NCBI GenBank assembly: GCA_017472665.1
Contig: JAFUOS010000013.1
Span: forward strand, 62,001 to 126,000
Direction: 5' to 3'
Length of the DNA stretch: 64,000 bases
Source: Tyzzerella sp.
Lineage (GTDB): Bacteria; Bacillota; Clostridia; Lachnospirales; Lachnospiraceae
The notes beneath the pieces were generated by a model. It was given only the letters and a program-made list of their open reading frames with translations, made no database searches and was not told the origin of the DNA. The translations under genes and the position numbers were made by a program. This document shows positions 1-10,843 of the stretch, in pieces (the first letter of the stretch is position 1; the number at the start of each line of letters is the position of its first letter).

Positions 1-582
1 TGCGGCGCAGAAGAAGATTTCTTTGCAATGAAAGAGACATTGGAAGCTTTCGCGGCATATAACGATTTGACATTCTCTTATAATAGAGGAGAGGTTCCTT
101 ACTTACATCCGGGAAGAACAGCTGAAGTATACTGCAAAGGACAGAAGATTGGTCATTTCGGACAATTACGTTATGAAATCATCGATAGCTTAAATATTGC
201 CGGCGGCAAGAAAGCTGATACAAAGATTTTCATCGCAGAAATCGATTACAGTGTATTAAATGGATTGTTCAAGGAAGCAATCAAATATGTTCCAGAAACA
301 GGATTCAAGGGAAATAGCCGTGATATCTCTGTCTTAATTGACAAGAAAGTGGAATGCGGTACAATCATTGATGCAATTACAGCATGCGATGAATTAATCA
401 AGAAAGTAAGTCTGTTTGATATTTTTGAGAGTGAAAAATTGGGAGCAGACAAGAAGAGTATGGCATTTAAGATTCAGTTGGTGTCAGATACAGCTGATGT
501 GACAGATGAGATGACAGATGCTGTTATCGAGAAGGTAATCGGTGCGCTTGGCGAACAGTTTGGGGCACAGATGAGAGTGTAA
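1..582 (+). CDS. pheT: Phenylalanyl-tRNA synthetase beta subunit, C-terminal part (5' end outside window)
   Basis: The reading frame is open from base 1, so the gene enters from the left and only the last 193 residues are seen. The visible part ends with the ferredoxin-fold anticodon-binding (FDX-ACB) domain, from about YVPETGFKGNSRDISVLID to GAQMRV, which closes bacterial PheT. The enzyme charges tRNA-Phe as an alpha2-beta2 tetramer with PheS, which should lie just upstream. No clear terminator follows before the recombinase gene 83 bases downstream. Identification is by family recognition of the C-terminal domain. Confidence 0.93.
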   Translation, partial: CGAEEDFFAMKETLEAFAAYNDLTFSYNRGEVPYLHPGRTAEVYCKGQKIGHFGQLRYEIIDSLNIAGGKKADTKIFIAEIDYSVLNGLFKEAIKYVPETGFKGNSRDISVLIDKKVECGTIIDAITACDELIKKVSLFDIFESEKLGADKKSMAFKIQLVSDTADVTDEMTDAVIEKVIGALGEQFGAQMRV

Positions 583-665
583 TTTTCAAAAATTTGCTGA
601 TTATAGGTTTAAAATGTTTTAAAATGGGTAACAAATATGACTAATAGGAATATGGAGGTTTACCC

Positions 666-1505
666 ATGGAAGATAGAATATTAACAATCAGACAAATTGA
701 ACAATATAAAGAATATTTAATACGAGAAGAGAAAAGCGCAGCTACGCTGGAGAAATATCTCCGGGATGTCTGCGCTTTTTTTGCGTTCGCAGACCATAGA
801 GAGATTACGAAGGAATTGGCTATGGATTATAAGAAATTTTTAATGGACAAAGGCTATGCGGTGAGAAGTATCAATTCTATGTTAGCATCACTGAATAGCC
901 TACTTTCATTTTGTGGTTGGGCAGATTGCAAAGTAAAGAGTATAAAAACACAGAGGCAAATCTATTGTGCTGAGGAAAAGGAACTGACAAAAGCGGAATA
1001 TATGCGTTTGTTGGATGCATCAAAGAAGCAGCCCCGCCTTTTTTTGGTATTGCAGACGATTTGCGGAACAGGTATCCGTGTCTCAGAGCTTTCGTATTTT
1101 ACAGTGGAGGCGGTAAAACATGGAGAGATTACCGTGTCCTGCAAAAATAAAATCCGAACAATTTTGCTTCCTGGGAAACTTAGGAAAATGCTTTTAAATT
1201 ATGCCAAAAGAAATGGCATTATGGAGGGAATTATTTTTCGGACAAAGAATGGAAAGCCACTTAATAGGAGTAACATTTGGACGAAAATGAAAGCATTGTG
1301 CGAGGCTGCAAATGTGAAACCAGAGAAAGTATTCCCGCATAATCTGCGGAAGCTCTTTGCGGCAACCTTCTATAAGATAGAAAAAGATATTGCTAAACTT
1401 GCAGATATCCTTGGACACAGCAGTATCAATACTACTCGAATTTATATTATGTCAAGTGGTGTGGAACATCGGAAAAAAATCGAAAGACTTGGATTAGTTG
1501 TTTGA
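666..1505 (+). CDS. Tyrosine site-specific recombinase, candidate DNA invertase of the adjacent switch
   Basis: 279-residue protein of the XerC/D-like integrase family. An N-terminal SAM-like core-binding domain (about 1-90) is followed by a catalytic domain with the full set of residues: R138 in GTGIRVSEL, K160 or K162, H225 and R228 in HNLR, H251 in GHSS and the nucleophile Y260 in TRIY. The start at 666 has GGAGG about eight bases upstream. It is not part of a phage or conjugative element here: its neighbours are pheT and, 43 bases past its stop, the first of two perfect inverted repeats. Single small recombinases beside inverted repeats commonly invert the DNA between them, so I infer it flips the 1548-1841 segment. 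Chromosome dimer resolution is less likely given this context. Confidence 0.9.
   Translation: MEDRILTIRQIEQYKEYLIREEKSAATLEKYLRDVCAFFAFADHREITKELAMDYKKFLMDKGYAVRSINSMLASLNSLLSFCGWADCKVKSIKTQRQIYCAEEKELTKAEYMRLLDASKKQPRLFLVLQTICGTGIRVSELSYFTVEAVKHGEITVSCKNKIRTILLPGKLRKMLLNYAKRNGIMEGIIFRTKNGKPLNRSNIWTKMKALCEAANVKPEKVFPHNLRKLFAATFYKIEKDIAKLADILGHSSINTTRIYIMSSGVEHRKKIERLGLVV
733..782 (+). terminator. Intrinsic-terminator-like hairpin inside the recombinase coding sequence
   Basis: Outer arms AAAGCGCAG (733-741) and CTGCGCTTT (770-778) pair perfectly. An inner hairpin GGAGA-AATA-TCTCC occupies 749-762, and the outer 3' arm runs into a seven-T tract (776-782). This is the shape of a rho-independent terminator, but it lies in codons 23-39 of the recombinase. 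It could act as an attenuator when ribosomes are not close behind polymerase. That role is inference. Confidence 0.5.
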
Positions 1506-1547
1506 AAATCATGAATTTCAAGTTGCATTAAATGGCATAAATAAACA

Positions 1548-1570
1548 CCACATAATTCTTATTATGTAGT
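1548..1570 (+). repeat. Left inverted repeat of the switch
   Basis: This 23-bp sequence is an exact reverse complement of 1819-1841. It is itself a dyad: ACATAAT (1550-1556), spacer TCTT, ATTATGT (1561-1567), as expected for two recombinase monomers flanking a crossover region. The asymmetric TCTT spacer gives the site a direction, and the two sites point toward each other, which predicts inversion. A further 10-bp match, CGAACAAAAT (1576-1585), pairs with 1803-1812 after a gap of five versus six bases. Confidence 0.92.
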
Positions 1571-1593
1571 GTTCTCGAACAAAATGTGCAATA

Positions 1594-1621
1594 TTTACAA
1601 ATGCATAATACTACATATTAT
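1594..1621 (+). promoter_or_regulatory. Rightward promoter candidate inside the switch
   Basis: The -35 is TTTACA (1594-1599), then a 16-bp spacer, then the -10 TATTAT (1616-1621). Ten of twelve bases match the sigma-A consensus. In this orientation it would make an RNA of about 125 nt that ends at the hairpin 1705-1752. Confidence 0.45.
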
Positions 1622-1645
1622 TTTGAAATGCAAGAAAATTGTGAA
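1617..1645 (-). promoter_or_regulatory. Leftward promoter candidate inside the switch (predicted ON promoter after inversion)
   Basis: On the minus strand the -35 is TTCACA (1645-1640), the spacer is 17 bp and the -10 is AATAAT (1622-1617), again ten of twelve consensus bases. An alternative minus-strand pair, TTGCAT-17-TATTAT, spans 1633-1605. In this orientation it reads antisense into the recombinase. After inversion it would face sipW with a leader of roughly 140 nt. Confidence 0.45.
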
Positions 1646-1704
1646 ATTTTAACAAGCAAAAAAATATGAAAAGGATATGAGGAACTTATTAGGGCATACT
1701 CATA

Positions 1705-1752
1705 ACACCCCCACTGAAATAAATTTTTAATATTTCAATGGGAGTGTTTTTT
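1705..1752 (+). terminator. One-way terminator inside the invertible segment
   Basis: A 17-bp stem with two mismatches (1705-1721 with 1731-1747) is followed by a T tract (1747-1752). An outer AGGGCA/TGCCCT pair (1691-1696 and 1756-1761) extends it. The minus strand has no T tract after the stem, so it should terminate only rightward transcription in the present orientation. Confidence 0.75.
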
Positions 1753-1818
1753 GTGTGCCCTAAATTATTTTCACAAGACGGAAACGCTGACTGGTACATA
1801 CAATTTTGTTCGTGTATT

Positions 1819-1841
1819 ACTACATAATAAGAATTATGTGG
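1819..1841 (-). repeat. Right inverted repeat of the switch
   Basis: This is the exact reverse complement of 1548-1570, with the same ACATAAT/ATTATGT dyad around an asymmetric 4-bp centre. It lies 80 bases before the sipW start, so any promoter in the segment must read through it to reach the operon. Confidence 0.92.
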
Positions 1842-1921
1842 TTATAAATTCAAATGAAAAATGCAAATAGATAAATAGAAAATATAGTAACTAAAATATT
1901 TCCTAAAAAGGAGAGGTAAAG

Positions 1922-2467
1922 ATGAAAATCTCAAGTGTGCTTAGAAAGGTGTGGAATATCATTACTACGATTATTGTTGTAGTGGTTGTAATCTTTGCCA
2001 CATTGCTTGTAGGAGTTAGAGTGTTTGGGGTTCAGGTCTATTCGGTCATTTCCGGTTCCATGGAACCAGAATATCCGGTTGGAGCGCTTATTTATGTAAA
2101 AGAAATCGACCCAACAGAAATTGAAGTGAATGATGTCATAACATATGTTCTTCCGAATGGTACTCCATCTACTCACAGGGTAGTGCGAATTGATGAGGAA
2201 AATCAACATTTTTATACCAAAGGTGATGCCAACGATTATGAAGACGCAAGCCCAGTCTACTTTAAGAATCTAATAGGAACGCCGATTTTCAAGATTCCGT
2301 ATCTCGGATATGCGGCTTATTACATACAGCATCCGCCGGGCATGTACATTGCGATTGCTGGCGGAGCCATCTTACTAGTACTTGTTTTTATTCCGGATCT
2401 TTTCAAAAAAGAAAAGAAGAAGGAAAAATTTATCCCTGAAAATGGAGGGGACACAACAACGGGGTAA
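1922..2467 (+). CDS. sipW: SipW-type signal peptidase I
   Basis: 181-residue membrane protease of the archaeal/ER-like (S26B) type, which removes the signal peptides of TasA/camelysin-like proteins. An N-terminal membrane segment (about 11-35) precedes the catalytic Ser46 in SGSMEP. The general base is His85 in STHRVV, where ordinary bacterial signal peptidases have Lys, and a GDAND box follows at 101-105. A second membrane segment lies near 140-158, before a Lys-rich tail. AGGAGAGG precedes the start. It is the first gene after the invertible segment and is followed by six genes whose products carry SipW-type signal peptides, so its clients are almost certainly encoded next to it. Confidence 0.93.
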   Translation: MKISSVLRKVWNIITTIIVVVVVIFATLLVGVRVFGVQVYSVISGSMEPEYPVGALIYVKEIDPTEIEVNDVITYVLPNGTPSTHRVVRIDEENQHFYTKGDANDYEDASPVYFKNLIGTPIFKIPYLGYAAYYIQHPPGMYIAIAGGAILLVLVFIPDLFKKEKKKEKFIPENGGDTTTG

Positions 2468-2514
2468 CGCCGAAAGGCTCCCAAATAGATTTTATTTTAT
2501 AGGAGGTTTTTATT

Positions 2515-3156
2515 ATGACAAGAAAAACGAAAGCATTGACCATGGCTCTTTGCGCGGTGTTACTCGTCGTTACTACTGTATTTGCAACGATGGCGTTTCT
2601 TACTTCGCAGGACTCGGTCACAAACACATTTACGGTCGGAGAAATATCTTTGACACTCGATGAGAAAGATACTGACGGATCTAAAACTGACACGACTACC
2701 GATGGACGAGATAAGGCAAATGAATATCATTTACTGCCTAGCAGCACCTATGAAAAAGACCCTACCGTTCATGTTGCTGCTAATAGCGAAGATTGTTATG
2801 TATACGTCAAAGTTACCAATGGCATTGCTGAGGTAGAAGCTACGACAGGAAACTACGATGATGTTGAGTACAAAAGTATTTCTGACCAGATCAAAACCTT
2901 AGGATGGAAACAATTAGTTGTTGATGGTAAAGAGGTTGTGGGTGTGTATTACCAAACTGTTAGCAAGGCAAAATATATTCAGGAGTTAGTTGTTTTTAAA
3001 GAGTTCAAAATTAAAGGTGATGTAAGCAATGAAGAACTTGCTAAATATGCAACTAAAACTGATGACACAAAAATCATTGAAGTGGTTGCTTATGCTGTTC
3101 AGAGTGCTGGTTTTGATGATGCAGCAGATGCTTGGAGCAATACATTTGGAAACTAA
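2515..3156 (+). CDS. TasA/camelysin-like secreted protein 1
   Basis: 213 residues. The N terminus is a basic, hydrophobic signal of the SipW-dependent type: MTRKTK, a membrane-spanning stretch, then ATMAFLTSQDSVTNTFTVG. Such proteins are matrix fibre subunits or cell-surface metalloprotease-like proteins, and function cannot be told apart from sequence. The mature part is acidic and beta-rich in appearance, with the family's closing pattern EVVAYAVQSAGFDDAADAW. AGGAGG precedes the start, 47 bases after sipW. No cell-wall anchor is visible. Confidence 0.85.
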   Translation: MTRKTKALTMALCAVLLVVTTVFATMAFLTSQDSVTNTFTVGEISLTLDEKDTDGSKTDTTTDGRDKANEYHLLPSSTYEKDPTVHVAANSEDCYVYVKVTNGIAEVEATTGNYDDVEYKSISDQIKTLGWKQLVVDGKEVVGVYYQTVSKAKYIQELVVFKEFKIKGDVSNEELAKYATKTDDTKIIEVVAYAVQSAGFDDAADAWSNTFGN

Positions 3157-3224
3157 CTCACGGAATAATGGCTATAAGCTTTTATTTATTATAACGAAAT
3201 CTTGAGGAAAGGAGGCAGATGATT

Positions 3225-3845
3225 ATGAGAAAGAAAATTTGTATTACAGTTACAGCACTTGCTCTCGTGTTATGTTTTGCGATTGGAGGGACACTTGCTT
3301 GGTTAATGGATAAAACAGACTCTGTTCAAAATACATTTACTGCTGGTGATGTAGATATAACTCTCGTTGAGACATGGAATACTGATAGCAACAATAATGG
3401 AGAAAATGACAGTTGGTCTGCACAGATGATTCCTGGAAATACATATGCAAAGGATCCAAAAGTAACAGTTGTTGGTTCTGAAGATGCAGTTGATTGTTGG
3501 CTGTTTGTCAAGGTTGAGGAAAAAGGAAATGCCCAAGACTATTTGAATTATAGTTTCACATTTGATGATGAAAATTCTGGATGGACACAACTTTCAACCA
3601 GCGAGGCTGATGGTACTACAACTACGGTGTGGTATAGAGAAGTTACAGCAAGCACAGCAGATCAATCGTGGTATCTGCTTGATGGAAACGAAGACTATAC
3701 TAATGGTTTTGTTAGTGTTGACGCTAATGAAGTAACCAAGAGTACGGTTGATGAAGCTGCTGAAGCAGAACTTGTGTTTACCGCTTATGCAGTACAAAAA
3801 GATAATCTTACTGTAGAAGAAGCTTGGGCCAAGTTTGCTAACTAA
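3225..3845 (+). CDS. TasA/camelysin-like secreted protein 2
   Basis: 206 residues from the ATG at 3225. I prefer this to the in-frame ATG at 3219 because the GGAGG at 3211-3215 is nine bases away rather than three. The SipW-type signal ends in GGTLAWLMDKTDSVQNTFT. The mature part has the pattern shared with its neighbours: GDVDITL, a PGNTYAKDP motif and the terminal TAYAVQ...VEEAWAKF. It is most like the preceding protein and is probably an older duplicate. Confidence 0.85.
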   Translation: MRKKICITVTALALVLCFAIGGTLAWLMDKTDSVQNTFTAGDVDITLVETWNTDSNNNGENDSWSAQMIPGNTYAKDPKVTVVGSEDAVDCWLFVKVEEKGNAQDYLNYSFTFDDENSGWTQLSTSEADGTTTTVWYREVTASTADQSWYLLDGNEDYTNGFVSVDANEVTKSTVDEAAEAELVFTAYAVQKDNLTVEEAWAKFAN

Positions 3846-3881
3846 AAAGAATTTAATAATTACAGAAAGGAAATTTGACTT

Positions 3882-4595
3882 ATGAAAAAGAAAATTACAT
3901 CACTTGGCCTCGTTGCAATTATTGCAATCATGGCAATCGCCGGTGCATCTCTTGCTTATCTAAAAGATACAGATCAAGAAGACAATGTTTTCACCGTCGG
4001 AAATGTAGAGATTGACCTCACAGAGAATTTTGATGAGAGTCTTGCAAAACTTATGCCAGCTGTTGGTTCTGCACAAAACGGAACTTTACAAAATGGTATT
4101 CAAAAAGAAGTTTTTGTAACAAATACTGGTTCAGAAAATGCATATGTTCGTGTACATATTGCAATTCCAACTATTCTTGACAATGGAGATCCTAGTTTTG
4201 ATGCAAGTTCCAATGTCCTTCATTTTAACTATGATGGAGACAACATTGGTGAGAACAAGTGGGATTGGTCTAATGCTACTGGTGCTCCTTATGAAGGTAG
4301 CTGGAACTACTATGAAACAACAATCGATGACATTGCTTACAACGTTTATGTAGTGACTTATGAAAAAGCACTTGTTGCCGACGAAAAGACAGTTTCTGCT
4401 ATGACTCAGGTGTATCTGGATTCTAAGGTAACCAATGAAGATATTAATAGCATCAAAAAAACTTTAGGTGATGACTGGCACATTTATGTAGCTGCAGAAG
4501 GAGTACAGGCAGCAGGATTCGCTAATGCTTATACTGCTCTCAACACCGCTTTTGGTACTCCTGGCAGCTACGCTGTAGAGTGGGTTGCACAATAA
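3882..4595 (+). CDS. TasA/camelysin-like secreted protein 3
   Basis: 237 residues. The SipW-type signal MKKKITSLGL...GASLAYLKDTDQEDNVFT is followed by GNVEIDLTENFDE. The central signature VTNTGSENAYVRVHIAIP is nearly identical to the next gene. The C terminus AAEGVQAAGFANAYTALNTA is also shared. AGAAAGGA lies upstream of the start. Together with 4631-5401 it forms a clear tandem duplicate pair, probably structural subunits of the same fibre or surface layer. Confidence 0.86.
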   Translation: MKKKITSLGLVAIIAIMAIAGASLAYLKDTDQEDNVFTVGNVEIDLTENFDESLAKLMPAVGSAQNGTLQNGIQKEVFVTNTGSENAYVRVHIAIPTILDNGDPSFDASSNVLHFNYDGDNIGENKWDWSNATGAPYEGSWNYYETTIDDIAYNVYVVTYEKALVADEKTVSAMTQVYLDSKVTNEDINSIKKTLGDDWHIYVAAEGVQAAGFANAYTALNTAFGTPGSYAVEWVAQ

Positions 4596-4630
4596 TTTGC
4601 AAAATAGAAAATGGAAAGGAGTAATGCACA

Positions 4631-5401
4631 ATGAAAAAGAAAATTACTGCTATTTGCCTTGTTGCCTCCCTTGCAATCATGGCAATCACTGGTGCATCTT
4701 TGGCTTACTTTACTGCTGAAGATACAGCAGATAACGTATTCACAATGAAAGGTATTAAAGTTGAGATTAACGAAGAATTCGAACAAGGCTCAGAACTTCT
4801 CCCAGGCCTTGATATCAACAAAGATGTATATGTAACTAACACAGGAAGCTCAGATGCTTATGTTCGTGTACATATTGCAATTCCTGCTGCACTTGATGAT
4901 GGGGATCCTTCTTTTGCAGCTATGAACAACTTCCTTCACTTCAATTTTGAAAAAGCATCTGTTGATGATGGTGAATGGAGCTGGTTGCCTGAAATGTCTG
5001 CTGGCACTGGATATAGAGGAAATGGTGTTGGCAACTGGAATTACTACACAACTACAATTGATGGCATCGAATATGCTGTTTATGTTGTGACATATCGTAC
5101 AGCATTGGAAGCTGGCGTACAAACTGCTACAAAGGCTCTTGACAAAGTTTATGTAGATACTTCTGTTGACTGTGAGTGGGTTGCTGATGAGACACACGAA
5201 GACGGTGGCTACTATGTATACGAAGATAACAAGGGCAATGAAGTTACTCTTGCTGACATTTCCGCTGATGGCGAAAATGTACAGATTAAAGTATTTGCAG
5301 AGGCTGCACAGACTGCAACATTTACAGATGCTTATGACGCTCTGAATACTGCTTTTGGAAATCCTGCAGATGCTGATTATGTTTCTCCATGGAATAAATA
5401 A
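4631..5401 (+). CDS. TasA/camelysin-like secreted protein 4 (tandem duplicate of the previous gene)
   Basis: 256 residues, with SipW-type signal MKKKITAICL...GASLAYFTAEDTADNVFT. It shares VTNTGSSDAYVRVHIAIP, GDPSF..., LHFNF and the closing TATFTDAYDALNTAFGNP with the gene before it. It is about 20 residues longer through an insert near the C terminus (CEWVADETHEDGGYYVYED). GGAAAGGAG precedes the start. The following intergenic stretch holds a candidate structured RNA. Confidence 0.86.
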   Translation: MKKKITAICLVASLAIMAITGASLAYFTAEDTADNVFTMKGIKVEINEEFEQGSELLPGLDINKDVYVTNTGSSDAYVRVHIAIPAALDDGDPSFAAMNNFLHFNFEKASVDDGEWSWLPEMSAGTGYRGNGVGNWNYYTTTIDGIEYAVYVVTYRTALEAGVQTATKALDKVYVDTSVDCEWVADETHEDGGYYVYEDNKGNEVTLADISADGENVQIKVFAEAAQTATFTDAYDALNTAFGNPADADYVSPWNK

Positions 5402-5406
5402 TCGAC

Positions 5407-5512
5407 GCTCTTTCTTATGTGTTCTTCGTACTCTGCTTCCTTCGGGGAGCAGGGTATATATGGGTACCTCAACCTATGGGATATTCATATATGCCCTACT
5501 AATAAAGAGAGC
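5407..5512 (+). ncRNA. Candidate structured RNA element within the matrix operon
   Basis: An outer stem pairs 5407-5418 with 5502-5512 (GCTCTTTcTTAT with ATAAAGAGAGC, one bulge). It encloses two hairpins. The first is CTGCTTCC-TTCG-GGGAGCAG (5433-5452), with a canonical C(UUCG)G tetraloop. The second pairs 5453-5462 with 5486-5495. The result looks like a three-way junction of about 106 nt lying between two operon genes. It matches no riboswitch I recognise. The tail ACTTTTAA is too poor in T for a classic terminator, so attenuation or mRNA processing are both possible. Confidence 0.45.
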
Positions 5513-5559
5513 ACTTTTAATTGATATATTCTAAAAATCAAGTGAAAGGAAATATTACT

Positions 5560-6159
5560 ATGAAGAAAAAAACGTTTATTTGTGCGTTTATGGTAGTCTG
5601 CCTATCCATAGTCGCATATGGCACAACTGCATATTTCACAAATGAAGATACAGTTACAAATGTTATCACAACTGGTGATGTAAAGATTGAATTGCAGGAA
5701 TGGGCAATTCCTGAAGAAGGCGGAGAACTGGTGCCTTTTAAAGATGCCACTGATGTTATGCCAGGCATGGAGGTCTCCAAGATAGTTCAGATTAAGAATA
5801 CTGGCGGGCAGGCTGCATGGGTTCGCATTTCACTTGAAAAGTTTATTACTCTTGCAGAGGGAGTCATAGGTGAGGTTGATTTGTCTTTGGTTTCTTATGA
5901 CTTGAATACAGATTATTGGACTGAAAAAGATGGTTACTATTATTACAATGCGGTGTTGAATCCGAGTGAAATTACTGAGCCATTGTTTTCAAAAGTAATT
6001 TTTGCAAAAACAATGAGCAATATGTATCAGAATAGCAAAGCAGTGATTGATGTCAGTGCACAGGCTACGCAGGTGACAAATAACGGCGAAACTGTATTTG
6101 AGGCTGCTGGATGGCCGAAAATAAATGAGGAGGGGTTAGAAAATGAAAAAACAAAATAG
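5560..6159 (+). CDS. TasA/camelysin-like secreted protein 5
   Basis: 199 residues from the ATG at 5560, chosen because AAAGGA lies nine bases upstream. An earlier in-frame TTG at 5521 has no ribosome site. The SipW-type signal is MKKKTFICAF...TTAYFTNEDTVTNVITTG. The mature part has VMPGMEVSKIVQIKNTG, a typical camelysin/TasA beta-sandwich strand, and WVRISLEKF. The next gene starts inside its last codons (17-base overlap), suggesting translational coupling. Confidence 0.85.
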   Translation: MKKKTFICAFMVVCLSIVAYGTTAYFTNEDTVTNVITTGDVKIELQEWAIPEEGGELVPFKDATDVMPGMEVSKIVQIKNTGGQAAWVRISLEKFITLAEGVIGEVDLSLVSYDLNTDYWTEKDGYYYYNAVLNPSEITEPLFSKVIFAKTMSNMYQNSKAVIDVSAQATQVTNNGETVFEAAGWPKINEEGLENEKTK

Positions 6160-9118
6160 GCTAAAAATGTTTTCATTGATTCTTGCTGTGGTAATGTTGG
6201 TTTCGAGTGTTCCTATTAGTGCCGTGCGTGCAGAAAACAGTGAGTATCCTTCGGAAGAGTGGTTTAAAGAACATTTTGAGGAAATCAATCAAAATGGTTA
6301 TTTTTGCGAGGATACTGCAAGCTTATACAGAAATCCTGTTACTTCCCCTGAAGACAAGATAGAGGTTTCCAAAGATTCATTACCAGAAGCTTTTGTAGTT
6401 CAATATAAGTATACAGAAGACAATGGCACCATGTGGTATATGCTTGACACGGAAAATTGGGATACACAATATTCTGAGTACGGCTATGTTTTGGCACAAT
6501 GTGTATCTATTGTTACTACAGAAGGTGACATTCCGGAAGATGTTTCGCTCAAACTTTCTGGTGTTACCGATGAGCAATCCAGTGCAATCCAAAACAGCAT
6601 TATCAATTATTCGGCATTTAAAAATTGCCATACAGTGAATTTCCAGGATGTCGATTTGAAATTTGTCGGGAGAGACGAAAATAGTCAGGAGTATGAGTGG
6701 CAGCCTGAGAAAGATGCTCCCGTTGCAGTTACTGTGACGAATGTGTGGGACACCACTTTGAATGAACCTATAGTGGACGTTTATCACATTTTAGATACTA
6801 AGGAAGCAATCGAAGATGCAAAAGACTCCGAAAATTTCTTCACCAGTACTAGTGCCGATTTACTTGCGGCGTATCCGAACGAAGCAGCGCTTGCGAAAGA
6901 AACTCTTTCCTTGGACAGTGAGGCAGTGCCATATGTGCTTCTTACAACTCGGAACGATTCCGTCTTATTTAACGAAGATGGCAGCGTCACTTTTGAAACC
7001 GATAGTTTCTCAGATTTTTGGTTTGCTAGTGGAGCAACAAATTCTACAACAAGCATTACATCGGGTTCTCATACTATATACATTGCTCCAGGGTATTCTG
7101 GGACACTTACTGTTGCCGATAGTGATGTGACACTAAGCACAACAACTCCTGCTGCTGGTATTACGGTTGGAACGACTGCAGAAAGCAATTCGACAACAGT
7201 TTCTGTTTCAGCGGATGCTGATAATGCAGTAATAGGCACTGAAAGCACGTTTACATTAACATGGAAAACAACGCAAAATCAAAATAAACCTAATAAACCA
7301 GGTACGAGTAGCGAGACTACCTATACAGCTACTATTACTGTAATAGTTGTTGATGAAGACGATTACGAAAAATACAAATATTTGGATAATTCAATCAAGC
7401 ATATTCAGGTTGATATTGAGGCGTCAGCCGTTATCTTGGGTTACAACAACGACGCAAGTACCGCAGTGGATTTGAATTTTACTTCAAGTACAAATTATAC
7501 TTTGACCCGAGTGATTGATGATGATAGTGAAGTTGGTTATTATTATCAACTGGTCTATGGCGATGTTACCATTACTGTTCGTATAGATGAAACACAGGAG
7601 TATCCGATTTATCCTACAACATTTGAAATTACTGGAATTTCAATAGAAGATGGACAGATTTCTTTTAATGGTACTTTTCCAGTTGGTACACAGGATAATC
7701 CTGTCAAATACAGCGTAACTGTTGAGACTACACTTTCTTTGACGCCTAATGATAAAACGCTGGCTGAAGATGTTGATGTAACACTATCGGATACGATTGG
7801 TTATTGGGATTCGGACAATGAGTGTCCTGGATTGGGGCATAACAAAACTGATTGGGAAACAGGTTCTGTGATTAATGGTTCTGGTATTGATCTTTCTAAG
7901 TTTCAAACTGGAGCGGTGTTGGGCGAAAATACGGTGTACGTCGTATTCAGCGGCCTCACCAAGATTGTTGAGGGGTATACGTTCTCCAGCGAAGAAACTG
8001 CAAGTCGTAACTTTGTATTTACTATTTATCGTCGTGCGAAAGGGAGTACGGATGCATGGGTCGCCTTTGATACCATTACTGTGACGGCAAACTCTGCTAC
8101 AACGACCACTACCATCAATGCTGAAGCTTCGAAGTATGATGTTAAGAATATTGCAAATTATGAGTTTAAAATTGTAGAAACAGGAAATAGCATTAGTGGT
8201 TATACTTGTACAGATGTAATCAAAATCAATGGCGAAACTTCAACGGATAATGTCTTTACTTGGACAGAGACGAAAGACACCACAAACAAGACCATTACAT
8301 ATTCAGTACAGATTACCTGCACCAATACATATGCGAAGGTAGTTTCTGGTCTAACTGTCAACAAGGTTGTTAATAAGGAAAATGAAGCAGATACTCTCCC
8401 AGCAGATGACATCTTTGAGATTGTTATCACCCCTACAACTTTAGAGATTGAGAATTCAATTTCCGAATTCAACGGTGGAAGTTATAACTATACAGTAGAT
8501 GGTGGTGCCGTGAAGACGGTAACCCCTGTTGATGGAACGAGCACAACGTTTGGTTCATTGAAGGTTTCTATTAAGGCAGGGCAGTCCATTAACTTCTCAA
8601 ATTTACCTGTGGGAAGCTATAGCGTAAAGGAAACAACAGGTGCTAATACCAATTACATTTATGATACGGATGTTCACAATGTTGAGTTGGAGGAAAGTAA
8701 GGAGGTAAAAGTTATATTTACTAATATTTATAAGCAACAGCAAACTTCTCTTACTATCAGGAAGACAGGTGCAGAGGCTATTGATGTGAATCAGACATTC
8801 TTGTTCCATGTTGTGGGGGATGATGTCGATTTAACAGTTACAACTCACGGTAATGGAGCTGTTACTATTACTGGTTTGAAGGCTGGTGGCACATACACTA
8901 TAACCGAAATTACAGATTGGTCTTGGAGATATGAACTTGATAATGTGACAACGGGACTTACTAATTTTGAATCTGTTACCAATGGCATTAAAGCAAAACT
9001 CTCCACAAATAGCGACGATAATGTTATTACATTTAGCAACAAGAGAGAAAAAAAACAGTGGTTAGATGGTGATAGTTCTTGTGTCAATGAGTTCACGGGC
9101 AAGAATAAAACAGATTAA
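6143..9118 (+). CDS. Large secreted surface protein with C-terminal Cna-B-like domains
   Basis: 991 residues. The signal peptide is of the ordinary type (hydrophobic core, then SAVRA|EN), so it is probably cut by standard signal peptidase, not SipW. The N-terminal half is unassigned. Thr/Ser-rich beta regions begin near residue 290. At least two Cna-B-like (SpaA-like) domains are suggested at the C-terminal end by KVVSGLTVNKVVN, NLPVGSYSVKETTG, SLTIRKTGAEAID and GLKAGGTYTITEIT. It ends in a hydrophilic tail (KKQWLDGDSSCVNEFTGK) with no visible sorting signal or membrane anchor. It probably acts as a fibre-associated adhesin or accessory protein of the TasA-like subunits. GAGGAGGGG precedes the start. 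Confidence 0.8.
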   Translation: MKKQNRLKMFSLILAVVMLVSSVPISAVRAENSEYPSEEWFKEHFEEINQNGYFCEDTASLYRNPVTSPEDKIEVSKDSLPEAFVVQYKYTEDNGTMWYMLDTENWDTQYSEYGYVLAQCVSIVTTEGDIPEDVSLKLSGVTDEQSSAIQNSIINYSAFKNCHTVNFQDVDLKFVGRDENSQEYEWQPEKDAPVAVTVTNVWDTTLNEPIVDVYHILDTKEAIEDAKDSENFFTSTSADLLAAYPNEAALAKETLSLDSEAVPYVLLTTRNDSVLFNEDGSVTFETDSFSDFWFASGATNSTTSITSGSHTIYIAPGYSGTLTVADSDVTLSTTTPAAGITVGTTAESNSTTVSVSADADNAVIGTESTFTLTWKTTQNQNKPNKPGTSSETTYTATITVIVVDEDDYEKYKYLDNSIKHIQVDIEASAVILGYNNDASTAVDLNFTSSTNYTLTRVIDDDSEVGYYYQLVYGDVTITVRIDETQEYPIYPTTFEITGISIEDGQISFNGTFPVGTQDNPVKYSVTVETTLSLTPNDKTLAEDVDVTLSDTIGYWDSDNECPGLGHNKTDWETGSVINGSGIDLSKFQTGAVLGENTVYVVFSGLTKIVEGYTFSSEETASRNFVFTIYRRAKGSTDAWVAFDTITVTANSATTTTTINAEASKYDVKNIANYEFKIVETGNSISGYTCTDVIKINGETSTDNVFTWTETKDTTNKTITYSVQITCTNTYAKVVSGLTVNKVVNKENEADTLPADDIFEIVITPTTLEIENSISEFNGGSYNYTVDGGAVKTVTPVDGTSTTFGSLKVSIKAGQSINFSNLPVGSYSVKETTGANTNYIYDTDVHNVELEESKEVKVIFTNIYKQQQTSLTIRKTGAEAIDVNQTFLFHVVGDDVDLTVTTHGNGAVTITGLKAGGTYTITEITDWSWRYELDNVTTGLTNFESVTNGIKAKLSTNSDDNVITFSNKREKKQWLDGDSSCVNEFTGKNKTD

Positions 9119-9135
9119 GAAAGGAGGCAGGCAAT

Positions 9136-9744
9136 ATGCACGAAACAAAACACTTAAAATCTAGAAAAAAAAGAAATACACGTGCCGTTCGCCAAAGAAT
9201 GACGGTACTGCTTGTCTCGTTATTTCTAACTGTCTTCGTTTCAATTGGAGCGGTTTTAGCATATTTATTTACTAAAACAGATTCAGTTGAAAATACTTTT
9301 ACTCCTGCAGATGTATCCTGCGATGTGGAGGAAAACTTTGATGGTACGACAAAAACTGATGTAAACATAAAAAATACGGGTGAAGTGGAGGCTTATATCC
9401 GCGCTACTGTCATTGTCACATGGGTTGCCGACGAGGGCGGTGTTGTGTATGCAACCAAGCCTGTAGAAGGTGAAGATTATATAATCACCTATTCTGATGG
9501 TGCAGATTGGATAAAAGACGCAAATGATTTTTGGTATTATATTTCCCCGGTAGGTGTCGGTGAAAGTACCACAGATTTAATTGAAAAGTGTATAGCTGCT
9601 GAGGGAAAAACACCAGAAGGTTATCACCTTTCTGTTGAGATTGTAGCTTCTGCGATTCAGTCGTCTCCAGAAACAGTAGTAGAGACTCAATGGGGTGTTA
9701 CAGTTGAAAATTACTTAATTACAGCTGTACCATCAGCGAACTAA
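9136..9744 (+). CDS. TasA/camelysin-like secreted protein 6
   Basis: 202 residues. A long basic N-terminal extension (about 20 residues, rich in Arg and Lys) precedes the SipW-type signal ending in GAVLAYLFTKTDSVENTFTP. The mature part has VNIKNTGEVEAYIRATVIVT and the closing EIVASAIQSSP...VETQWGVTV. AAGGAGG precedes the start. The extra basic segment before the membrane stretch sets it apart from the other five and may alter its membrane topology or release. Confidence 0.84.
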   Translation: MHETKHLKSRKKRNTRAVRQRMTVLLVSLFLTVFVSIGAVLAYLFTKTDSVENTFTPADVSCDVEENFDGTTKTDVNIKNTGEVEAYIRATVIVTWVADEGGVVYATKPVEGEDYIITYSDGADWIKDANDFWYYISPVGVGESTTDLIEKCIAAEGKTPEGYHLSVEIVASAIQSSPETVVETQWGVTVENYLITAVPSAN

Positions 9745-9756
9745 GGAGGTGCCGAT

Positions 9757-10419
9757 ATGAAAAAAATATTAAGTAAATCACTTTTTATGATTGCGGTGCT
9801 TGTTCTTATTATGAGCTGCTCAATGACAGCATTCGCTGCGGGCACAGTTACATACGATGGAAATGCAAAGAAATTCATCTTTGAACCAGGCAGTAAATAT
9901 TCACCTACCGACTTATTCACCGATTTCAAAGATGTTATGCCTGGCGACAGCATCACACAAAAAGTACACATCAAGAACGACGTATCTAATAATGTAAAAA
10001 TTAAATTATATATGCGTTCTCTTGGTGCACACGAAGATTCAAAGGAATTCCTCTCGAAGCTCCAGTTAAGAGTTTCTCAAGACGGAACTTCAAACTTGTT
10101 TGATGCTCCTGCCGATCAGACTGCCCAGCTTGCTGATTGGGTATATCTGGGAACATTTTATTCGGGAGCAGAAATTGATCTGAACGTCACTCTTGATGTG
10201 CCGATTGAACTTGGAAACGAGTATCAGAATGCAATCGGTTATCTTGACTGGCAATTCAAGGTCGAAGAACTCCCTGTAGAATCTAGCGATCCAAATCCAC
10301 CTCAGACAGGTGACACAACAAACCTTTCTCTTTATGTTGCCGTGGCTTGTGTGACAGGAATTGTTTTGGTTGTCTTAATAGGACGCAGACATGGAAAATC
10401 TAATCGGGAAACGATTTGA
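9757..10419 (+). CDS. LPXTG-like (PPQTG) wall-anchored protein
   Basis: 220 residues. The signal peptide ends in TAFA|AG. A single domain (about 30-175) carries FTDFKDVMPGDSITQKVHIKN, resembling the TasA-like strand motif. It is followed by a Pro-rich spacer and a sorting signal: PPQTG near residue 187, a hydrophobic helix and the basic tail RRHGK. A sortase should attach it to peptidoglycan, but none is encoded in this window. It is plausibly the wall anchor for the secreted subunits encoded upstream. AAGGAGG precedes the start, 12 bases after the previous gene. Confidence 0.85.
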   Translation: MKKILSKSLFMIAVLVLIMSCSMTAFAAGTVTYDGNAKKFIFEPGSKYSPTDLFTDFKDVMPGDSITQKVHIKNDVSNNVKIKLYMRSLGAHEDSKEFLSKLQLRVSQDGTSNLFDAPADQTAQLADWVYLGTFYSGAEIDLNVTLDVPIELGNEYQNAIGYLDWQFKVEELPVESSDPNPPQTGDTTNLSLYVAVACVTGIVLVVLIGRRHGKSNRETI

Positions 10420-10843
10420 AAAATTAGTGGTCGTTGAGCAGGTGAAATCAACTGCAAGCGGTCAACGTCAATGGCTGTGTCGGTGTGACTGTGGAGCAAT
10501 TACTTATAAGGCGACCGACACACTTAATAATGACGAGTATAGCAGTTGTCAGAAATGTGCGGGGAAATATGCAGCAGCAAAAGCAAGAGAGGGCGCTGGA
10601 TTTTTTGAGGGTACACAGATTTCGAAAATAAAGGATATGTCCCCAACTGCAGCGAATACCAGCGGTGTTCAAGGTGTGTATTTTGATAAAAGGCAGAATA
10701 AATGGAGAGCACGTCTAAGGTTCAAAGGGAAAATCATGAGCTTTGGCTCATTCTCACGCTTTGAGGACGCTGTATTTGCAAGAAAAATGGCAGAAAAAGA
10801 ATATTTTGGTACATTCCTTGAGGAAAACGACCTCAATAGATAG
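10391..10843 (+). CDS. AP2-domain DNA-binding protein
   Basis: 150 residues starting 29 bases inside the preceding gene in another frame. The N-terminal part (about 1-60) has GKRFEKLVVVE and a Cys pattern CRCDCG...CQKC, likely a small zinc-binding module. The C-terminal part (about 88-140) is an AP2-like DNA-binding domain with SGVQGVYFDKRQNKWRARL and the following FGSFSRFEDAVFA. Bacterial proteins of this type are often phage-borne or attached to homing nucleases, but no nuclease domain is seen here. Its overlap with the operon suggests co-transcription and a possible regulatory role, which is inference. Confidence 0.75.
   Translation: MENLIGKRFEKLVVVEQVKSTASGQRQWLCRCDCGAITYKATDTLNNDEYSSCQKCAGKYAAAKAREGAGFFEGTQISKIKDMSPTAANTSGVQGVYFDKRQNKWRARLRFKGKIMSFGSFSRFEDAVFARKMAEKEYFGTFLEENDLNR

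Follow-up and report, generated by a model that had tools for sequence, protein, structure and literature searches.

A predicted invertible promoter switch ahead of a SipW-led matrix-protein operon in Tyzzerella and its relatives among the Clostridia

Introduction

SipW/TasA-type matrix proteins are a main model of biofilm heterogeneity, a phenomenon that has so far been explained by regulators. A locus of Tyzzerella sp. raises the question of whether an operon of this kind can be controlled by the DNA itself. Within a 64,000-nucleotide (nt) stretch of assembly GCA_017472665.1 (contig JAFUOS010000013.1, positions 62,001 to 126,000), hereafter the window, a pair of inverted repeats lies between a tyrosine recombinase gene and a SipW-led operon. 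A preliminary description of the window read this arrangement as a phase-variation switch that works by DNA inversion. Invertible promoters (invertons) are a known kind of element; our search of the open-licence literature turned up no SipW/TasA-type operon under an inversion switch, which does not prove that none is in print. With a DNA switch in this position, if true, matrix production in uncultured Clostridia would vary by phase and be inherited, and the state of the switch could be read from metagenome reads.

Here we compare the locus with its relatives among viral contigs and genomes of the same genus, family and order. Our analysis makes it very probable that the recombinase inverts a promoter together with a co-inverted terminator, which would switch the predicted matrix-protein operon OFF and ON. 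The phase-variation reading of the preliminary description draws support from three sides: the co-occurrence of recombinase and repeats, the placement of promoters across the family, and the presence of both orientations among homologues.

Results

A perfect repeat pair beside a complete recombinase

The two repeats, or arms, occupy positions 1547–1570 (left, + strand) and 1819–1842 (right, − strand). Each is 24 base pairs (bp) long, they are 100% complementary, and they are the sole perfect inverted repeat longer than 12 nt among those listed for positions 1–5000. Between them lies the segment that we predict, by comparison with the family, to be invertible (1571–1818, 248 bp, unstranded). 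The preliminary description had reported perfect repeats of 23 bp, omitting one outer base per arm; its repeats are thus real and slightly longer than stated. Its other observations on the segment stand: 248 nt separate the arms, no open frame of at least 60 amino acids is listed inside, and each arm is itself a dyad, ACATAAT-TCTT-ATTATGT (1550–1567 and 1822–1839), with a non-palindromic TCTT centre. The window's own genome (1.66 Mb, 65% complete) holds no other copy of the arm at up to three mismatches, and the reversed control pattern likewise gave 0. By eye, a second inverted match, CGAACAAAAT, is seen directly inside both arms (1576–1585 and 1803–1812), possibly as an accessory site.

To the left of the repeats, positions 666–1505 (+ strand) encode a complete tyrosine recombinase of 279 amino acids, as had been described (PF00589, 86.6 bits against a cut-off of 27.1), which is the predicted inverter of the segment. 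Residues R138, K162, H225, R228, H251 and Y260, which we take to be catalytic, are invariant in 13 relatives, and three further full-length enzymes (P0001–P0003) are near-identical to it, at 95–97%. The open frame preceding the recombinase is presumably the end of pheT.

Recombinase and repeat pair go together

Relatives of the recombinase were sought in overlapping sets comprising the named contigs (12 loci), the genus (10 genomes), 397 family genomes and 392 order genomes; protein names point to Lachnospiraceae as the probable family. The genus yielded one close relative beyond the window's own enzyme (genome G004), and matches at E 1e-60 or better were present in 84 of the 397 family genomes and 41 of the 392 order genomes. 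At most six recombinase candidates were scored per genome in the family and order searches, so that the recombinase counts are lower bounds. Removal of duplicates left 190 distinct hits, from which L164 and L196 were dropped because their repeat calls were runs of N. The remaining 188 loci divide into 121 with a repeat pair, 37 without a pair despite room for one (at least 700 nt), and 30 without a pair and with less room. Four loci with unusual arms (L074, L093, L112 and L139) were kept among the 121, and about 12 listed places, truncated or low-scoring, lie outside the loci compared.

When the recombinases are divided at 250 bits, an inverted-repeat pair lies 3′ of the gene in 121 of 144 high-scoring loci, the window included, and in none of the 14 low-scoring ones. 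Because the same placement recurs so often, the repeat pair is not a product of chance. Dyads are separated by a median of 245 nt. Viral contigs gave the same picture: 8 of 12 close recombinases have room (two of these loci being identical) and all eight have a pair, against none of the 22 distant recombinases tested out of 49 (36–41% identity). Among 395 genomes of relatives, nine have the recombinase at E 1e-105 or better, all of them already in the census. Some genomes (G055, G369, G261, G157 and G038) carry at least five or six recombinases of the switch family each.

Matched, asymmetric centres in the arms

Across the family the arm mostly reads ACATAAT-N4-ATTATGT, with the variants ACAGAAT and ACAAAAT. 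For a comparison of centres, left and right arms were picked on their half-sites alone, by a rule devised after seeing the data. Both arms have the same 4-nt centre in 113 of 119 loci, where 2.27 would be expected with shuffled partners, and 72 different left centres occur among these loci; self-complementary centres are rare (2 of 119 against 7.4 expected). Strand exchange by tyrosine recombinases between inverted sites needs matching, non-self-complementary centres, and the matched, asymmetric centres of the family are therefore what such an exchange requires. The idea that switches of the same genome avoid a common centre, each having a private address, was rejected: 3 of 55 pairs in 21 genomes share a centre, with 0.67 expected.

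Perfect dyads are also concentrated where the recombinase is found. Totals summed by hand from a per-genome table give 137 dyads in the 397 family genomes against 19 for the reversed pattern, of which 120 (control 7) lie in the 84 recombinase-positive genomes; the remaining 313 genomes account for 17 (control 12).

Both orientations among homologous segments

The clearest sign of inversion comes from two paralogous switches of a single genome (L104). Their segments match on opposite strands with 79% identity over 179 nt, reach z 21.0 when aligned inversely but 3.0 when aligned directly, and are called ON and OFF. The segment of L100 likewise aligns inversely with those of L058 and L203 (z about 10, against 1.5 in the same sense). 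Weaker inverted pairs, to which the hairpin may contribute, are L097–L197 (10.0 against 4.2), L152–L177 (5.6 against 2.3) and L122–L173 (5.4 against 0). The recombinases beside these inversely aligned segments are like-oriented. The preliminary description had suggested looking for both orientations in related genomes; inverted homologous segments are indeed present, in homologues and not at the window locus itself.

The window segment has no convincing alignment to any relative in either sense (z at most 3.4). A two-state comparison at its own locus was not obtained, since close relatives added none, the exact window arm is absent from the viral_contigs set, and the identical viral-contig loci L224 and L225 are in the same orientation. 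The positions of contig ends provide a further hint. Within 400 nt of the recombinase, 28 loci end on its 3′ side and 7 on its 5′ side, and within 100 nt the numbers are 16 and 2 (the locus ends of L067, L076 and L081 being excluded from the count). Mixed orientations would produce such breaks 3′ of the recombinase, and other causes are possible.

Promoter and terminator layout

We scored promoters against the sigma-70 consensus, with a matrix devised after seeing the data. The top-scoring promoter of the two strands is found 25–65 nt inside the arm that it faces in 93 of 121 segments, compared with 23.75 in shuffled segments (standard deviation 3.9; maximum 31 in 20 rounds). When the promoter search is confined to this interval, the spacer is 17 in 102 of 121. 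Promoters so placed point toward the recombinase, which we call OFF, in 97 loci and toward the operon, ON, in 15, with 9 unclear. The stronger terminator opposes the promoter in 55 loci and has its direction in 28 (p 0.004); 14 are about equal in both directions, 24 have none by our criterion, and in only 2 does a strong terminator in the promoter direction stand between promoter and arm. The common plan, as this promoter placement and these terminator counts give it across the 121 segments, is arm, terminator, outward promoter, arm. Distances from the −10 box to the arm peak at 35–39 nt (24 loci) and 45–49 nt (49 loci), a spacing of roughly one turn of the helix.

The window segment can be laid over this plan. 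Its predicted switch promoter, TTGCAT-17-TATTAT (1605–1633, − strand), is a weak match that faces the recombinase; its distance from the arm, 37 nt inward, is typical of the family. An alternative promoter-like site on the same strand, TTCACA-17-AATAAT (1617–1645), matches 10 of 12 consensus positions, as does a rightward site, TTTACA-16-TATTAT (1594–1621, + strand), which runs into a predicted terminator hairpin with a U-run (1690–1764, + strand; −35.1 kcal/mol, z −8.15). From the placement of the switch promoter and from the hairpin, the window orientation is predicted to be OFF. This strong terminator, the predicted OFF orientation and the large cassette family, which precedes operons of many kinds, had been overlooked in the preliminary description.

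As assembled, the promoter at 1605–1633 would fire toward the recombinase, and the terminator at 1690–1764 would halt transcripts coming from the recombinase, shielding the operon from read-through. Inversion would move the promoter to about 1756–1784 on the + strand, with its −10 box some 137 nt ahead of the start of sipW, and would reverse the direction of the terminator. From the sequence we infer that the window recombinase acts on the window arms, that inversion occurs in this strain, and that operon expression follows the orientation of the segment.

The same terminator invites a different account, modelled on cwpV of Clostridium difficile (PMC2784873). There, as in the window, a short segment (195 bp, with 21-bp inverted repeats) lies before a surface-protein gene, and a terminator has been proposed to act in the OFF state; in contrast to the window, the promoter is upstream of the segment and recV is not near the switch. 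By analogy, the operon would be driven from upstream, inversion would either put the terminator in the path of read-through or take it away from there, and a promoter in the segment would matter little. The U-run of the window hairpin, present on the + strand only, and the excess of terminators that are stronger against the promoter direction fit such a scheme. However, a fixed outward promoter in 93 of 121 segments would then be pointless, and 28 segments have their stronger terminator in the promoter direction while 24 have none by criterion. We consider a pure terminator switch unlikely and favour the inversion of promoter and terminator together.

Points against the switch and two further explanations

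A number of observations weigh against inversion of a promoter as the explanation for this locus. The window locus is seen in one orientation only, that of the assembly, and the segments of four pairs of relatives (L049–L050, L058–L203, L150–L151 and L167–L169) align directly and not inversely. In the window the rightward site outscores the switch promoter (8.1 against 7.4), and OFF and ON calls in general depend on consensus scores. Among the high-scoring loci with room, 23 lack a pair, including L003, which has the recombinase and a SipW operon but one dyad only. Two places show a pair without a nearby recombinase: the matched pair of L286 (G028:C39) has none within about 2 kb, and that of L282 (G350:C283), close to a contig end, has none either.

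Some of these points would suit a former switch that is now locked, the recombinase or the arms being dead in this lineage and the operon constitutively off or otherwise driven. A weak promoter and a single visible orientation are what one would expect of it, and L003 suggests that an arm can be lost at such loci. Against this stand the state of the arms, perfect over 24 bp, and that of the recombinase, which is full length with its conserved residues and has the full-length copies P0001–P0003; a locked switch is therefore very unlikely in our view.

The places with dyads and no listed recombinase, of which 12 were inspected, bear on another explanation, in which the dyads are not crossover sites and serve either as operators for a regulator of recombinase and operon or as the ends of a mobile element. 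The near-palindromic arms do resemble operators, and the L286 pair stands without a nearby recombinase. Of the other places inspected, the dyad pair of L281 proved to have an adjoining recombinase, which the limit of six candidates per genome had hidden, and in L284 a weaker recombinase (79 bits) lies close to a lone dyad. Orphan pairs do occur, but rarely. The preliminary description had named repeats without an adjacent recombinase as a case that would refute it; L286 is one such pair, and dyads in recombinase-negative genomes are near background. Operators would have no need of the matched asymmetric centres or of the inverted homologous segments, and the recombinase lies outside the repeats, which thus do not bound it as an element. 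We regard this explanation as scarcely credible, and inversion by the adjoining recombinase as the preferred reading throughout. L286 and L282 may themselves be switches worked in trans by a distant recombinase.

Genes behind the switch

In six genomes, that of the window and those of L197, L198, L199, L200 and L201, the first gene beyond the repeat pair encodes SipW. TasA-like N-termini follow SipW in all six except L201. The window and L198–L201 are called OFF, and L197, from the window's genus, is called ON. SipW lies about 2 kb further on in L108, which has no pair, and in L186; L162 has a weak match. The seven SipW-linked recombinases form about four small groups in a 26-leaf clade of a 177-leaf tree, which implies that partners have been swapped or lost.

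More generally, in 102 of 114 loci the longest open frame beyond the right arm is directed away from that arm, with 7 further loci too short, and strongly hydrophobic N-terminal stretches occur in 54 of 120 downstream proteins. Eight genes of this hydrophobic type were scanned. Domains of repeat or surface type are present in four of them, in one case slightly below the cut-off; a fifth encodes a polysaccharide biosynthesis protein, a sixth an Rrf2 regulator, and the last two gave no match.

In the window itself, the operon to the right of the repeats is led by sipW, as previously described. The gene (1922–2467) encodes a SipW-type signal peptidase by TIGR02228 (99.8 bits against 51.85) and scores 101.6 with NF046067, the SipW equivalog, under its cut-off of 190. 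Five SipW-dependent BsaA/TasA-like proteins follow (2515–3156, 3219–3845, 3882–4595, 4631–5401 and 5560–6159; TIGR04088 and TIGR04090). TIGR04088 exceeds its cut-off in four of the five, the first scoring 17.6 against 19, and TIGR04090 (BsaA) exceeds its own in 4631–5401 (63.5 against 60), the others being under it. The locus thus combines a SipW-type signal peptidase with adjoining SipW-dependent substrates, the mark of a SipW/BsaA (TasA-type) matrix operon, and the product of 4631–5401 qualifies as a BsaA-family matrix protein.

These genes are followed by a 991-amino-acid protein with a SpaA domain (6143–9118; PF17802, 29.8 against 23.1), a further BsaA-like protein (9136–9744; TIGR04090 34.4, under the cut-off of 60), a probable LPXTG-anchored protein (9757–10419; TIGR01167, 16.0 against 15.9) and, as the final gene counted in the run, an AP2-like protein (10391–10843; PF00847 20.8, under the cut-off of 33.3). 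The whole run, 1922–10843, is on the + strand and presumably forms one transcript. In L004, L078 and L094 the gene immediately behind the switch encodes a relative of the AP2-like protein.

The operon is predicted to build surface fibres on the basis of these family models. The earlier label "surface-fibre" has its basis in SipW/BsaA models and not in fold: no solved structural relative of the TasA-like proteins was found by sequence, fold comparison gave generic beta-sandwich matches, and TasA is not among the 50 fold matches listed, which excludes nothing.

Discussion

The comparison extends beyond one strain. We lean toward the view that a clade-wide plug-in switch inverts an insulating terminator together with a promoter that points outward, is mostly OFF, and has been re-used across Clostridia before varied, often surface, operons. 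With a SipW/BsaA operon behind the switch in at least six genomes, matrix production in these would be a heritable, DNA-written ON/OFF trait. Clostridium perfringens offers a functional parallel, since its sipW-led BsaA matrix operon also gives ON and OFF cells in one population (PMC7395162). Unlike the trait proposed here, that heterogeneity is regulator-driven: bimodality of sipW-bsaA arises through a two-component system and PilA2, and the word "inversion" is absent from the main text of that paper.

The family as a whole has probably been met before. Inverton group 139, with invertase group 35, comprises 33 invertons, 32 of them in Clostridia and almost all close to a tyrosine-type recombinase; in Clostridium sp. 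D5, for example, arms of 26 bp are separated by 205 bp, and in reads the orientations of the group shift over passages and with surface attachment (PMC11892184). Size, taxa and recombinase linkage, the features compared, agree with the window switch family, and the two are probably the same. The main text of that paper mentions neither signal peptidase nor TasA. The family rule that emerges here, an ACATAAT-N4-ATTATGT dyad (or variant) directly 3′ of the recombinase with a promoter 25–65 nt inside one arm, can be used to find such switches and to call their state.

Among better-known systems, the C. difficile flg switch differs from the window in the place of its promoter and in its recombinase linkage. 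Escherichia coli fimS (PMC7446863) is alike in that the invertible element holds the promoter of an adjacent surface-fibre gene and adjoins recombinase genes, whereas the window has a single recombinase, an intrinsic terminator within the segment, and a different recombinase and target. A second, distant recombinase (145–173 bits with the family profile) is present in the same locus in L076, L081, L155 and L207, and also in L067, L107, L112, L154 and L165; in several loci it comes directly after the switch, and two-recombinase control as in fim is conceivable there.
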